DNA of 25,321 bases, taken from the IMG/VR virus record IMGVR_UViG_3300042505_000070, positions 1 through 25,321 of that record. One strand, given 5' to 3'. The position numbers and the translations under genes were made by a program. Source of the DNA: a virus. Shown in pieces: positions 2,087-25,321 of this stretch; within the stretch, counting starts at the first letter, position 1, and every line of letters starts with the position of its first letter. The notes beneath the pieces are model-generated. The model searched no databases and was not told where the DNA came from. It was given only the letters and a program-made list of their open reading frames with translations.

Positions 2087-2452
2087 ATGAAAGCAATAAC
2101 AATGATAACACTGACGGCGATGCTGATGGCATCGGTGATGGCGGAAGATGATGATGCTGACGCTGCTGATTTTGTGGGAGCAGTGCTAAAGCGCAACGGA
2201 TTCTCGTGTGGTCGTGGATGCGTAATATCAGAGAATGGTGGAATGGCTTATTCATCGTCATCTGGTAGGTCAATAATTTCTACTGAAGGTTTCTATTTTA
2301 AGTCTGGAAGTAGTGTTGTTGGGAAAGATGCAACATTCATATCGAAGTCTAGGAATTTCTTTTATGGAACTTCCGCAACGATTAAGGCTGGTTCTGCCTA
2401 TATGAATGGAGATGCTGTTTGGGTTGGATCTCAAGAAGAGGATAATGATTAA
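2087..2452 (+). CDS. Small secreted protein, only plus-strand gene
   Basis: The product has 121 residues. The first 19 form a typical Sec signal peptide (MKAITMITLTAMLMASVMA) with an AxA-like end before an acidic EDDDADAAD stretch. The mature part has one close cysteine pair (C-G-R-G-C, near residues 41-45), is rich in Ser/Gly and ends QEEDND. I recognise no family. It is divergent from the nuclease gene and convergent with the lysozyme gene, whose stop codon overlaps its own by two bases. Upstream I see no strong Shine-Dalgarno and only a weak promoter-like TTGACG at 2051-2056. Orientation, export signal and position between modules resemble a 'moron' expressed independently of the phage operon. 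A spurious frame is possible, but the signal peptide and normal composition argue against it. Confidence 0.6.
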   Translation: MKAITMITLTAMLMASVMAEDDDADAADFVGAVLKRNGFSCGRGCVISENGGMAYSSSSGRSIISTEGFYFKSGSSVVGKDATFISKSRNFFYGTSATIKAGSAYMNGDAVWVGSQEEDND

Positions 2453-3225
2453 GCTCCAAATATTGCGAGCCTATTCCGTATTCTGCTTTCTAGTCCACTA
2501 ATAAACTTCTTTCTGGCTGGGTTGCGTTGAGCCATTCGGTATTCGTCCTCAAGCTGGGCTTGGCTGGCTGCACGCATTAACGCCTTCGGCTCAACTTGGT
2601 TGATCGCAGCCAATGTCTTTGGACCTAGCCCTCCGTCAACAGCCACCTTCTGCCCCAGCGTGTTCAACCCTTGCTGGATGTACTTCGTTGCACCGCCCAT
2701 CCCGCGATTAAACGCGAGATCCTGTGCGAATGGTTGGACTTCTTGGGGCAGTTTAGAGACGAATGGGCTGGTGTACTCCTTGACGTACCGCGCCGCAGCC
2801 TGCGCTCTTTCTTGCGCTGGGAGCGATGAGATTCTTTTGAAGGCATCTGGATGATACTTATCGTTAATACCAGCAACCTCGAAATTACCACCCATATCTC
2901 CTGCTGGCAATTTATAGACCTGCACATTTCCTTGCTTGTCCTTCCTCGCCTCAAAATCAATCGTCTTTAACGCTGCTGTTTGTAGTACATCTTGTTCTGG
3001 TTTTGTTTGCATGGGTTGTTGTTCCTCTATAAAGTCAAGTTCTGGCGGTTCTAGCACAGCTTGCTCTACTTGCGGTGCTTGCTTGGCGTATTCTCTGGCC
3101 TTCTCAATTGGAGCGATCCTTCTCACCTCTTCTGGCACTGCCTCATATCCAGTACCAGTAAGCTCCCTTGCCACCATGTCGTTTCTCAGGGAAACATCCT
3201 TGGATGGGTTTATTGAAAACTTCAT
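2449..3225 (-). CDS. GH108-like lysozyme with peptidoglycan-binding C-terminus
   Basis: The product has 258 residues. Residues 1-85 are an acidic, probably disordered leader. From about residue 88 the pattern DFEAR ... AGDMGGNFEVAGIND (E92, D110, G112-G113, G119-I120) resembles the E ... DxGGxTxxGI signature of GH108 N-acetylmuramidases. The end (FNRGMGG, then AVDGGLGPKTLAAI and ISGLESRI) matches the PG_binding_3 domain that follows GH108. It should cleave the glycan backbone of peptidoglycan. The start overlaps the stop of the 1233-aa ejection-type protein gene by ATGA. It has no signal peptide, so it is either a virion-carried lysozyme that opens the wall at DNA entry or the endolysin, released by a holin. 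The catalytic Glu assignment is by pattern only. Confidence 0.68.
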   Translation of the reverse strand: MKFSINPSKDVSLRNDMVARELTGTGYEAVPEEVRRIAPIEKAREYAKQAPQVEQAVLEPPELDFIEEQQPMQTKPEQDVLQTAALKTIDFEARKDKQGNVQVYKLPAGDMGGNFEVAGINDKYHPDAFKRISSLPAQERAQAAARYVKEYTSPFVSKLPQEVQPFAQDLAFNRGMGGATKYIQQGLNTLGQKVAVDGGLGPKTLAAINQVEPKALMRAASQAQLEDEYRMAQRNPARKKFISGLESRIRNRLAIFGA

Positions 3226-15676: not shown

Positions 15677-15925
15677 CTAGTTAGAAAGGCGGTTTTTGAG
15701 GACATCCCAGGCCATTGAGCAAGCAAGCCCTATTAGCCCAGCTACAGCCAGAACCTTCGTCCGCAGGTGTTCTAGCGCACCTAATCTATTAGCAACATCT
15801 CCGTGAAAAGCAAGTGACCTTTCAATCATTGAGATAAGCGTCATCTGGCGTTCCTCCATTCTGGCAAGTCGCTCTGACACGCTGGCAACTCTGTCTTTAA
15901 GATCCGAAACCTCATCAAGACTCAC
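15677..15925 (-). CDS. XhlA/holin-accessory-like small membrane protein
   Basis: The product has 82 residues. An amphipathic coiled-coil (VSDLKDRVASVSERLARMEE, then MIERSLAFHGDVANRLGALE) is followed by one hydrophobic segment (about residues 57-76, TKVLAVAGLIGLACSMAWDV) and a short basic tail. This coiled-coil plus C-terminal membrane helix is the layout of XhlA-type (haemolysin XhlA) holin-associated proteins. The start is GTG 15925, with GGAGG 9 nt before it, inside the end of the upstream gene (11-nt overlap). It could help a holin or form holes itself. A virion or anchoring role is an alternative, since the next genes are fibres. Confidence 0.55.
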   Translation of the reverse strand: MSLDEVSDLKDRVASVSERLARMEERQMTLISMIERSLAFHGDVANRLGALEHLRTKVLAVAGLIGLACSMAWDVLKNRLSN

Positions 15926-21794: not shown

Positions 21795-23675
21795 TCAACC
21801 CGCCATCGGTGCTGGTGCTTGGCCTTGCATTGCTTCTGGAGGCAATTGTTGCCCCTGCTGTTGCATCTGAGCCTTACCTGCATCACGAAGCTGTTTCTGG
21901 ATAGCGCGGGATGTATTTGGGTCAACCTGTTCCAAGGCTGCCAAGTGCTGTTGTAAGTGTGCCATTAGAACTTGCATTGCGCTCTGATCGACCTGCTGTT
22001 GTCGCTGTTGAGCCGCTTGGTTAAACGCGAAGAGAACGGATATATGCGCTTTGTGATCGTCGCTAGGCTTGATTGCGACTGGGAATCCAGTTGCAAGCAT
22101 AGTCGCGATTTCAGTCGCTTGATCTTCAGCTTGATCGCCAGAGGCTGCGTTTGGATCTTGGAAGAGCCTGCGGACCAGCGAGGGATCGTCTTGTTCAAGC
22201 ACTGACTTTACCAGTTCGCCTTGGTTGATGAAAGGATTATTTTGGAACATGCTCATACGGCTGACTGCTTTCTGCAACGCAAACTGACGGTTGATAAAAT
22301 CCAATCCACCCTTTGGCTCAATCGAATACTCATCGTGGATACCTTCGGGTGGCATCGATCCAGTCTCTTCCGCATAGCGGAACATCAAATCCTTCTTGTT
22401 GTACTGCGTGTAAAGCGACCAGCACTGTTTGAAGAGATGGGCTAGACCCATTCGGAACATACGATTGCGTAAATCGCCAGAAGCTGCTGCCTGTGACTGC
22501 AACGCCTGAATCTCGGTAGCAGTCTTGCGATCCGACACTTGGAACTGCGAGCCAGCACCAAAGTCTGGATTGCCCATCCGCTGTTCCGAAAGCAGACGCT
22601 CTTCAAGCATCAGTTTCTGGAAGTCGAATGGAGGTTGGCTAAACTGAACTGGTTTCAAGCCCTGTGGCAGAATCTGCCCAGGCTGCATCTTCAAGTTCGA
22701 TGTGTTTAGCGAGATTGGATTCTGTGCTTCGAAAACTGGGCGGTTGGCAAGCTCCACATAGTCAGAGAGACTATTTTTTAATTTATTGAGGAGGTTCTCA
22801 TTCGGGAGGAGGATCTCGGCCACACCTCGTGGACTGTACCAACCGCCACCAGTAACTTCATAAGGGAAATCTACGAAAGGTGGTTCACCGTGACGATAGG
22901 GTAATGTGAAAGGTTTGCGTACATCTTCGGTCAAAACAAGCGGACTATAAGTTTCAACCTTCCATCCGTCTTCGGACGGGGTGTACATCTCCCAAAGGAC
23001 AATACGGTCATTCTCAGCTTCTTGAGTAATTCCCTCACGCCTGTAAATCTCGTCTTGAATCTCACTTCGTAAGCCCACTGATTTGGAGGCTTTACCTGAA
23101 ATTGTTTTGATAAAGTTCTCATCCTGCTTGTACAAGGGATTTGCCTTATAGGAATCGACACTCGTTGAGATGATGTGAACGATGAAATCTGCATCTTTGA
23201 ACTCCTTGGTATAGGAAGGAACAATAATATGGAAGGGATCAATAGCCTCAAAGTCAATGCGCTTCTTGTCCTCGTTCCAAACAATCTTGGCAACGCCTCG
23301 TCCGTAAAGAAGAATATGGTCGATTACGGAAACAATCTCTTTCTGGAAGTTTGTGCGCTCACGCATATTGTAATCAAACCAACGCTCGGCTGAGACGGTC
23401 AGCGGAGTCAACTGCTGGCGCATCGGGACGAAGCTGGAAAGAATGTCGTTGCCAATCGCGCTGTTTACGAAAGAAGGCTTTAGCTTCTCGATTGCGCTGT
23501 CGATTAGCTGAACGTGAAGATCGGCTGCTGTAGGCCAAGGCTTGACCTTGCGGCGTACACCAAAGTAGCGGGCTTGATAGAACAACCGCTGGCGGTTCTC
23601 CCAAGTCTCGCGCTGGTTAAGAGCTTCGATGATTCTGGTGTAATAATCTGATCGGCGTGTATCTTTGGCGTTCAT
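21795..23675 (-). CDS. Portal protein
   Basis: The product has 626 residues. The N-terminus has charged helices (NQRETWENRQRLFYQARYFG), then ILLYGRGVAKIVWNED, DPFHIIVPSYTKEFKDADFI and YRHGEPPFVDFPYEVTGGGWY. This order of a stem/wing domain and PYxVTGGGW(Y)SPRGVAE ... LKNSLSDYVE is typical of podovirus-type portals. A helical part follows (RKTATEIQALQSQAAASGDL), then a Gln-rich barrel-like tail (QQRQQQVDQSAMQVLMAH). It forms the dodecameric DNA gate that docks terminase and tail. The start is ATG 23675 in an ATGA overlap with the o-spanin-like gene. The C-terminal Q-rich extension could reach into the capsid, as in P22. Confidence 0.78.
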   Translation of the reverse strand: MNAKDTRRSDYYTRIIEALNQRETWENRQRLFYQARYFGVRRKVKPWPTAADLHVQLIDSAIEKLKPSFVNSAIGNDILSSFVPMRQQLTPLTVSAERWFDYNMRERTNFQKEIVSVIDHILLYGRGVAKIVWNEDKKRIDFEAIDPFHIIVPSYTKEFKDADFIVHIISTSVDSYKANPLYKQDENFIKTISGKASKSVGLRSEIQDEIYRREGITQEAENDRIVLWEMYTPSEDGWKVETYSPLVLTEDVRKPFTLPYRHGEPPFVDFPYEVTGGGWYSPRGVAEILLPNENLLNKLKNSLSDYVELANRPVFEAQNPISLNTSNLKMQPGQILPQGLKPVQFSQPPFDFQKLMLEERLLSEQRMGNPDFGAGSQFQVSDRKTATEIQALQSQAAASGDLRNRMFRMGLAHLFKQCWSLYTQYNKKDLMFRYAEETGSMPPEGIHDEYSIEPKGGLDFINRQFALQKAVSRMSMFQNNPFINQGELVKSVLEQDDPSLVRRLFQDPNAASGDQAEDQATEIATMLATGFPVAIKPSDDHKAHISVLFAFNQAAQQRQQQVDQSAMQVLMAHLQQHLAALEQVDPNTSRAIQKQLRDAGKAQMQQQGQQLPPEAMQGQAPAPMAG

Positions 23676-23911
23676 TTTTGTCTTTCTCTGCTTAATTCAA
23701 ATGACAGATCGTTGACGTAATGTAAAGCGCGTTTTGCCCAAGCGCGTACTTTTGGATCAGCAGTACGGACAGAAGAATAGTTTTCATCTCGTATTAAGGA
23801 CTCAACTGCTCCCGTTGTGTTTGTTACTGGTGTCGTTGTTGCGCAACCACCAAGACTCACCACGCAGATCACGCTCAATAGCTTCGCGATTCTTGCTCCA
23901 ATCGTTTTCAA
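23672..23911 (-). CDS. o-spanin-like outer-membrane lipoprotein
   Basis: From TTG 23911 the product has 79 residues. It has a textbook lipoprotein signal: basic start (MKTIGARIAK), hydrophobic core (LLSVICVVS) and lipobox SLGGC (Cys at residue 23). The mature region is Thr-rich (ATTTPVTNTTG) and then helical (KVRAWAKRALHYVNDLSF). The open frame extends to 23992, but there it lacks a signal sequence, so the internal TTG is chosen. Its first 110 nt overlap the i-spanin-like gene in another frame, the arrangement known for Rz/Rz1. Its stop shares ATGA with the portal. By family logic it would join the i-spanin across the periplasm to fuse membranes at lysis. Confidence 0.6.
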   Translation of the reverse strand: MKTIGARIAKLLSVICVVSLGGCATTTPVTNTTGAVESLIRDENYSSVRTADPKVRAWAKRALHYVNDLSFELSRERQK

Positions 23912-23990
23912 GGTTTTGTGTTCGCTTGTCTTTCCAGCCTGGAATGATGCGAAACACTGCTGCGATGATCTCAAGGATTGCACGCAGCAC
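23802..23990 (-). CDS. i-spanin-like (Rz-type) small membrane protein
   Basis: From GTG 23990 the product has 62 residues: MLRAILEIIAAVFRIIPGWK with one hydrophobic N-terminal segment, then a charged helix (KDKRTQNLENDWSKNREAIE) and a polar tail with WWLRNND. N-terminal membrane anchor plus periplasmic coiled-coil is the Rz plan, but at 62 residues it is shorter than typical i-spanins. The start comes 7 nt after the holin-like stop without a Shine-Dalgarno, so coupling is likely. The overlapping lipoprotein gene supports the Rz/Rz1 reading. A different small membrane protein is the alternative. Confidence 0.5.
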   Translation of the reverse strand: MLRAILEIIAAVFRIIPGWKDKRTQNLENDWSKNREAIERDLRGESWWLRNNDTSNKHNGSS

Positions 23991-23997
23991 AAATAAA

Positions 23998-24168
23998 TTA
24001 TTTAATATTCAGCCCGACTGTCTTGAGGAAGTTTACGATCTTTTCCAAGAACGTATCGTCCGCTGGGGTCGGTGTGAGTTTAACAATGATGCGAGCAGCA
24101 AGAACGATGCCACCAACAGCGGCTACGATCTCTTGCCAATTTGAAGTAATCCAATTCCAGATATTCAT
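23998..24168 (-). CDS. Holin-like small membrane protein
   Basis: This 56-residue gene falls below usual ORF cut-offs. It reads MNIWNWITSNWQEIVAAVGG, one hydrophobic helix (about residues 11-30, ending RIIVK), then LTPTPADDTFLEKIV and a C-terminal amphipathic stretch. A single membrane helix followed by KLTPTP-DD is familiar from small phage holin-like proteins. A strong SD (AGGAGG, 9 nt before ATG 24168) overlaps the terminase stop. It precedes the spanin-like pair, making a lysis cassette without an adjacent endolysin. A pinholin-type role is plausible; pore formation itself cannot be shown here. Confidence 0.55.
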   Translation of the reverse strand: MNIWNWITSNWQEIVAAVGGIVLAARIIVKLTPTPADDTFLEKIVNFLKTVGLNIK

Positions 24169-24173
24169 AGTGT

Positions 24174-25321
24174 TTATCCTCCTGCGTCAAATCCAGACAT
24201 GACGGGATCGTGGGATACCATCATTTCTTGAAGTGACTTCCAAGTTGGACGTTCTATTTGGAAAGTCAAGTCAAGACCGACATTTGAGCTACTGAGGCAC
24301 AAGGCCAGCGCGTCAGCCCTATCGGGTGAGGCTATGCCTCTGGCACGCATTGAGTCCTTTGACTCTACGCCCAGCTTGCCCTTGCTGTTGGTGATTGTAC
24401 GCCTGCAAGTCAACTGTGCCGTCAAGTCCTCGTCCTCTGGCAATATGATCTCAGCATCCTCAATCTTCTTTGCCATGTTGTACCACATCTCGGCAGACCG
24501 ATTGGTATAGGCGTTGTTGTCGTATGCCGTAGCCCCAAAGTTCACGCGATTGACTACCCAGCCAGACTCAGCCAAGGCATCGCACATAACCATCCCCATG
24601 CCACTCGCGTCAGCGTAGATGTTGTTTGCTTCCAGCCCAGCCTTCTTGAACTCGACTATAAACCTGCCTACCGCTGCCATCGTGTCTTTCTCACGCCATG
24701 CAATCATAGGCAGGATCTTGTTGCCATCGCTTATGCAGATCACGTTCTGATCGCCACCCGCTGCAAAGTCCACGCCTGCTATGCGTACACCTGGTCTGAA
24801 TCGGGGTGGTGTGTTGTGGCAGTTCTGTAGCTGGGTGAGGTTGATAACTAGGCTTTCCAGCCCTATGTCAACAAACTCGCCGTAGATCATAGATCGGGTC
24901 AGCGGGTGCTTCTCGCCGTATCGCTGGACTACCTCATCAATCTGGGTCTGCGTTATGTGCGGGCAGTCAAACGCTGTGACTGCGTGCTTCTGCCACATAT
25001 TGGCTTCCTTGGTAAACGCCCGATAGAACGCACCGCTAGTCCCGCCTGGGCTGGATGCGATTAGCAGCCTAGTTGGTTGACATCGGCTGATGGCCTCAAA
25101 CAGTGGGTCGGCGACAGTCTTGGCTTCGTCCACCACCATCAGCAATGGATGGTATTCGTGGTCCTCTGCATGCCAGCCTTCAGCACGCCCTGGGTCAGTC
25201 GCTGAGTAGCCTATAATGCGTGATGTGTTGCCGTTGGGGTGGAGGTAGCGGATCTCGCCAGATGTGACCTCCCAAGCACCACCAAGCTTGGCAATGTGAT
25301 TGCGCAGGCTAGGCCAGAGTT
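24174..25321 (-). CDS. Terminase large subunit, C-terminal part (runs off window)
   Basis: The open frame has no stop up to base 25321, so the N-terminus (Walker A) lies outside; 381 residues are present. The upstream portion includes ITSGEIRYLHPN-like strand sequence (TSGEIRYLHPNGN) and a Walker B LLMVVDEA (DEA codons near 25122-25130), then the coupling strand RLLIASSPGG. The nuclease domain has GVDFAAGGDQ (Asp near 24770), IYADASGMG (Asp near 24611) and SPDRADAL (near 24312-24323), the metal-binding residues of the RNase H-like fold. It cuts and pumps DNA into the capsid through the portal. An internal TTG at 25145 is not the true start because motifs continue upstream of it. Confidence 0.85.
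   Translation of the reverse strand, partial: LWPSLRNHIAKLGGAWEVTSGEIRYLHPNGNTSRIIGYSATDPGRAEGWHAEDHEYHPLLMVVDEAKTVADPLFEAISRCQPTRLLIASSPGGTSGAFYRAFTKEANMWQKHAVTAFDCPHITQTQIDEVVQRYGEKHPLTRSMIYGEFVDIGLESLVINLTQLQNCHNTPPRFRPGVRIAGVDFAAGGDQNVICISDGNKILPMIAWREKDTMAAVGRFIVEFKKAGLEANNIYADASGMGMVMCDALAESGWVVNRVNFGATAYDNNAYTNRSAEMWYNMAKKIEDAEIILPEDEDLTAQLTCRRTITNSKGKLGVESKDSMRARGIASPDRADALALCLSSSNVGLDLTFQIERPTWKSLQEMMVSHDPVMSGFDAGG

Follow-up and report, generated by a model that had tools for sequence, protein, structure and literature searches.

A candidate lysis-type cassette with an overlapped out-of-frame lipoprotein gene between terminase and portal in uncultured phages

Gene content and layout of the locus

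The virus record IMGVR_UViG_3300042505_000070 was analyzed from position 1 to 25,321 (25,321 bases); this whole stretch is referred to as the window. Genes on its minus strand run in the order terminase large subunit, HOL, IM, LP, and portal. The features used below are as follows.

24174–25319, minus strand: terminase large subunit, 3′ part; the window ends inside the gene (tblastn against annotated terminases, best 37.6%)
23998–24168, minus strand: HOL, 56 aa, with one hydrophobic segment, an LTPTPADD motif, and AGGAGG upstream; phrog_9685 (unknown function)
23802–23990, minus strand: IM, 62-aa inner-component candidate, GTG start
23958–23989, minus strand: predicted RNA hairpin, located right at the start codon of IM
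23981–23983, minus strand: alternative LP start, a GTG in frame with LP and 46 codons ahead of the lipobox Cys; found in 115/115 relatives
23672–23911, minus strand: LP, +1 out-of-frame lipoprotein, 79 aa from TTG, mature form ~57 aa
23843–23854, minus strand: lipobox codons L-G-G-C of LP, present in 115/115 relatives; Cys codon 23845–23843
21795–23675, minus strand: portal protein (SU10_portal, 5.5e-15)
2449–3225, minus strand: endolysin candidate (PG_binding_3; phrog_315 endolysin), located apart from the cassette

The initial annotation proposed a spanin-like pair made up of IM and LP. Both open reading frames exist (23802–23990, minus strand, GTG, 62 aa; 23672–23911, minus strand, TTG, 79 aa), and the proposed sharing of 110 nt (23802–23911) in different frames and the LGGC lipobox in LP are both borne out. 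The stop codon of LP overlaps the portal start (ATGA). No Shine-Dalgarno-like sequence was found upstream of the IM start, whereas HOL has one. Because IM lacks this signal and starts 7 nt after the HOL stop, its translation is probably coupled to that of HOL, and LP would be translated from inside IM.

Two other genes of the window were recorded. A 121-aa ORF with a signal-peptide-like start (2087–2452, plus strand) is encoded opposite the other genes and converges on the endolysin candidate; relatives G004 and G001 have an ORF in a comparable position, and a search for PHROG matches found none. The second, an 82-aa protein (15677–15925, minus strand), combines an N-terminal part that looks like a coiled coil with a hydrophobic segment at the C-terminus, is conserved in relatives, and presumably resembles XhlA-type holin partners.

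Conservation and dual coding among relatives

Scans of IMG/VR confirmed 354 relatives for HOL, 148 for IM, and 291 for the terminase, and the best 80 of each were used. The resulting 201 sequences (200 loci plus the window) include many overlapping extracts of the same contigs. A full HOL-to-portal stretch is present in 190 of the 201; 115 are distinct and form 16 clusters at 90% nucleotide identity. The 11 left out comprise five that end just after or inside HOL, one that begins after HOL, one Akkermansia phage, and four removed by position filters. In all 115 distinct relatives the LP frame is +1 relative to IM and, once sequences are anchored on the Cys, IM starts with GTG. Relative L123 has an earlier IM stop, giving 57 codons compared to 62 in the query.

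Homologs with one frame broken by stops had been named as evidence against the pair. Such breaks were looked for, and the LP frame over IM codons 27–61 is interrupted in 0 of 115 sequences, where 49.3 are expected to be broken under synonymous recoding with the phages' own codon usage (minimum 35, 200 runs). The 16 cluster representatives gave 0 versus 7.0 expected (minimum 2, 1,000 runs), and an earlier recoding run with a slightly different set gave P(0) = 1/2,000. The third frame has stops in 115/115.

Normalized third-position diversity was compared with background windows; this statistic treats related sequences as independent, and the 16-cluster test is safer for stops. Values are 0.019 for IM codons 46–56 (0/986 background windows as low), 0.128 for codons 1–15 (0/978), and an ordinary 0.586 for codons 16–32. 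For LP, diversity is 0.167 at positions −3 to +6 around the Cys (4/983) and ordinary (0.592) in the LP-only part after the overlap. Third positions of LP are fixed where they form the first positions of IM W47, W48, and N52 (CTT, GGT, and ACA, each 115/115), unlike the third position of the neighboring Gly codon, which varies. The synonymous-site constraint for which the initial annotation had suggested looking is therefore present, with sites frozen in both directions. The overlap is real: both genes exist, are conserved, and are co-encoded, and the constraint is reciprocal.

Values of pN/pS are 0.08 for HOL, 0.31 for IM codons 1–26, and 0.33 for the LP-only part. In IM codons 46–62 the IM-frame value is 1.57, which indicates that LP dominates there, and IM residues 57–62 are free to vary; both would fit a locus in which only LP (or only IM) is expressed and the other frame is a passenger. 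That arrangement is very improbable given the value of 0.31 in IM codons 1–26, the invariant GTG start, and LP third positions frozen exactly where they encode W47, W48, and N52.

Two features vary among relatives in other ways. Nine of the 115 (L017, L024, L036, L041, L076, L126, L189, L190, and L197) carry an extra gene of 113–151 aa between LP and portal, apparently three different genes. The C-terminus of LP occurs in two sharply different types (..HYVNDLSFELSRER.. and ..NAVNDLSYELKVER..) that are mixed over similar IM sequences, which suggests recombination.

Start of LP and the hairpin at the IM start

The TTG to which the initial annotation assigned the LP start is present in the window (23911, −22 from the Cys) and is doubtful as the true start, as relatives have TTG at this position in 72/115, CTG in 5/115, and TCG in 38/115. 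No ATG, GTG, or TTG occurs between −26 and −12 from the Cys in 11/115. In the window, the LP frame extends without a stop over 106 codons, as far back as a TTG at 23992. Over IM codons 2–26 it is open in 115/115, with 69.7 expected to be broken, and the 16 representatives have 0 broken frames versus 10.0 expected. In T7 gp18.7, the annotated protein has 48 residues upstream of the Cys, comparable to an LP start at the conserved GTG at −46; the LP-frame pN/pS of 0.86 over this stretch counts against such a start.

The frozen IM codons 1–15 are explained about as well by the hairpin at the start codon as by an LP start at GTG −46. This hairpin is predicted for each of the 14 distinct segments covering the first 12 codons, at −10.2 to −13.7 kcal/mol, compared with means of about −6 to −7 kcal/mol after recoding; 2–69 of 500 recodings are as stable. 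The L032-type variant rebuilds it from other bases. Support from dinucleotide shuffles is weak (z −0.4 to −2.5), and an Rfam search returned no match.

LP is a candidate outer-membrane lipoprotein

The lipobox and signal peptidase II signal that characterize the outer component of spanin pairs are found in LP as LGGC in 115/115. A PROSITE-type lipobox pattern fits 113/115; requiring in addition a standard start and a K or R among the first 7 residues lowers this to 77/115. Lipoproteins sorted to the outer membrane generally have no Asp after the lipobox Cys; LP has Ala at this position in 96% of the 115. The initial annotation took the pair to imply an outer-membrane host, a step for which a lipobox alone is insufficient and which follows only if LP is truly an o-spanin.

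Family matches of LP itself are weak. The Rz-like spanin family phrog_456 is matched by 7/9 LP members (best 0.0054, mainly over the signal peptide), and in a six-frame search of the whole window LP is its sole match (3.7e-4, weak and mostly signal peptide). Profile searches of the PDB gave no meaningful match, and the AlphaFold model of LP, which contains helices only (mean pLDDT 61), is too weak for fold searches.

A unimolecular spanin was also considered. T1 gp11, a protein of this type, is an outer-membrane lipoprotein for lysis, as LP would be; this candidate was rejected because LP is without a C-terminal transmembrane segment, its mature end (...RALHYVNDLSFELSRERQK) having no hydrophobic span.

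Related cassettes in other phages

Direct tblastn searches of 50,697 phage records found nothing for LP or IM, and nothing for HOL at 0.01. At E values up to 10, HOL had only four weak matches, one of them in the marine phage S45C18 (AP013544). Like the window, this Ayaqvirus (marine Autographiviridae) has HOL, an amphipathic-helix ORF (104 aa, amphipathic at the N-terminus), and a +1 lipoprotein (73 aa, unannotated). Unlike in the window, the lipoprotein is fully nested (embedded) in the preceding ORF, and the cassette lies between the scaffold and major capsid genes. Marine relatives in IMG/VR (37 distinct of 46 loci) keep the +1 lipoprotein frame in 37/37; the script's lipobox pattern fits 34/37, and 3/37 have Thr at −3. 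Aligned with hhalign, LP and the marine lipoprotein match at 89.7% (E = 1.9e-6) over 52 columns that include the mature C-terminus, with shallow profiles (Neff ~1.6), and share a C-terminal motif (HYVNDL in LP, HYINDL in the marine lipoprotein). The same comparison of IM with its marine counterpart found no sequence similarity (0.2%).

Salicola phage CGphi29 and Pseudomonas phage LUZ100 have the same gene order as the window: a phrog_9685 HOL, a short helix ORF, and a +1 overlapping lipoprotein (SLPG_00043–00045 in CGphi29; gp37–gp38 plus a 78-aa ORF in LUZ100). Their lipoproteins differ from LP in matching Rz-like spanin PHROGs directly (4e-11 and 1.6e-12, respectively), their helix-protein sequences differ from IM, and the LUZ100 cassette follows the scaffold gene rather than lying between terminase and portal. 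All three genes are kept in 9/9 LUZ100-type loci in IMG/VR, and gene order is kept in L426, the sole relative of CGphi29. Four of the seven annotated phages with HOL homologs (Azospirillum Cd, RHEph21, RHEph01, and TRX32-1) have no lipobox ORF in the downstream stretch scanned.

In CGphi29 (L379:2779–2997) SLPG_00045 is annotated with a start that falls within its signal peptide; read from the upstream ATG, the product is a lipobox protein matching the Rz-like spanin phrog_8971. In LUZ100 (OP329100; L378:2698–3040) the 78-aa ORF, which is unannotated, immediately follows the phrog_9685 gene and overlaps gp38 in the +1 frame; gp38 matches the Rz-like spanin phrog_1275. In the part of their report cited here, the LUZ100 authors describe a holin and lysozyme, and no spanin, after screening ORFs for membrane localization signals (PMC10134795). 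An amphipathic partner would escape a screen of this type.

The stronger argument for the role of LP is comparative and comes from the marine and LUZ100/CGphi29 loci. Small phage lipoproteins with superinfection-exclusion or receptor-masking roles exist, and a weak match to phrog_1119 (Cor superinfection exclusion) was seen for 2/9 LP members (best 0.071). LP would then act in one of these roles, with IM unrelated and overlapping by chance. We consider this unlikely, since marine, LUZ100-type, and CGphi29-type phages all repeat the three-gene order with its +1 lipoprotein, spanin-PHROG lipoproteins being found in two of these groups, and the co-inheritance would need explaining. On these comparisons LP is best read as a putative o-spanin.

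IM lacks the transmembrane segment of known inner components

The initial annotation described IM as having a single membrane helix. Its N-terminus is instead a predicted amphipathic helix that carries three charged residues (R3, E7, and R14) and has a hydrophobic moment of 0.61, versus 0.16 for lambda Rz. The longest uncharged run in IM is 6 residues, compared with 23 in lambda Rz, 19 in T7 18.5, 19 in P2 LysB, and 23 in phiKMV ORF46; across the 115 relatives it is 6 in 101, 7 in 5, and 13 in 9, and in the counterparts it is 7 (S45C18), 12 (CGphi29), and 16 (LUZ100). An N-terminal transmembrane domain of type II topology, characteristic of i-components, was thus not found in IM, and this half of the earlier Rz/Rz1-like reading did not hold. 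No match at useful E-values was found in PHROG or Pfam families, and PDB profile searches gave no meaningful match. An AlphaFold model has a helix at ~2–15 and a long helix at 19–52 (mean pLDDT 64), a low-to-medium confidence too weak for fold searches.

As predicted from its sequence, IM is not a classical i-spanin. A classical overlapped spanin, with IM as a true type II i-spanin inserting its marginal helix across the membrane, would be helped by the hydropathy of this helix (KD 1.53, and 1.70 in the L032 variant), since the annotated Rz-like spanin T7 gp18.5 is also low (KD 1.35); the L032-type variant is also less charged, and the LUZ100 counterpart has the 16-residue uncharged run. With three charges within the helix, the high moment, and an uncharged run of 6 versus 19 in T7 gp18.5, we find insertion of this kind improbable.

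Comparison with known spanins and other surroundings

Spanin gene pairs can be embedded, overlapped, or separated but adjacent, and the IM/LP pair is overlapped, in the +1 register, in 115/115. The Rz/Rz1-like layout claimed earlier is upheld by this register, which is that of lambda, T7, and P2, by the conserved lipoprotein, and by other phages that share this gene order and have a lipoprotein matching spanin PHROGs. Like IM/LP, P2 LysB/LysC, T7 18.5/18.7, and lambda Rz/Rz1 are small out-of-frame pairs in which the o-component is a lipoprotein, and in all seven pairs computed the o-component is in the +1 frame. IM/LP differs from Rz/Rz1-type pairs in its 62-aa i-component candidate, with an amphipathic helix and no charge-free span, and in that LP is not proline-rich (2 prolines in the mature protein versus 10 in lambda Rz1). 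Its location had been called unusual, which was overstated: T7 and phiKMV have lysis genes near the terminase, T7 18.5/18.7 lying between the two terminase genes and the phiKMV holin coming immediately behind the large terminase, with lysozyme and Rz1 also after that gene.

In a sister lineage, whose terminase is 47% identical, terminase and portal are immediate neighbors (stop at 1485 and start at 1498 in L273). LP is absent in 5/5 records of this lineage and present in 5/5 of the window's lineage, and the endolysin divides likewise. A 74-aa lipoprotein candidate, different from LP, is found among the tail genes of the two sister genomes examined. A host was sought by a terminase scan of genome contigs, which returned only an Akkermansia contig and L273, a 3.4-kb viral contig in a freshwater MAG (Candidatus Aquidulcis frankliniae) that holds only the sister-lineage terminase and portal in the part read. 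L273 may have been placed there through a binning error, or its placement may hint at the host.

Proposed function of the cassette

HOL-IM-LP is probably a compact lysis-type cassette, a variant of two-component spanins with a differently anchored inner component, an assignment we hold with moderate confidence. LP would be exported, lipidated at the LGGC cysteine, and serve as the outer-membrane half. IM would be the partner on the inner-membrane side. A short amphipathic helix at its N-terminus would hold it on the membrane in place of a transmembrane segment, and its rod-like helix would reach LP after the peptidoglycan has been cleared by endolysin. We infer the export of LP, the contact between IM and LP, their action in lysis, and how IM reaches LP. 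IM may work like an i-spanin from the membrane surface, or with HOL as its anchor; having no transmembrane segment, it may also stay cytoplasmic and never meet LP. If the IM helix is the anchor, the combined length of IM and LP would be ~43 + 57 = 100, a value that is void if IM is cytoplasmic; the range for combined periplasmic length of spanin pairs is 62–300 in the part of the 2018 survey cited here (PMC6139136). Counting against a spanin is that no endolysin adjoins the cassette, the candidate in the window being 20 kb away. A more specific form, which we offer only tentatively, is a recurrent three-gene spanin-like module in which IM is a peripheral amphipathic-helix protein and HOL (phrog_9685) supplies the transmembrane anchor.

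Implications

For uncultured phages, the cassette provides a clear example of reciprocal constraint from dual coding. Literature searches on spanins with amphipathic helices, spanins in Autographiviridae, and phrog_9685 found no paper evidently describing it, which is no proof of absence. In the sections of the 2018 spanin survey cited here, 91 of 677 phages are without a spanin, and in 31 genomes a lipoprotein is present while a linked membrane partner of type II is missing, other anchors not being considered (PMC6139136). HOL-IM-LP is a concrete candidate for such missing partners, present in the cultivable phage LUZ100. The three-gene module, if true, would account for some phages, such as LUZ100, that have an o-spanin-type lipoprotein without a recognizable i-spanin.
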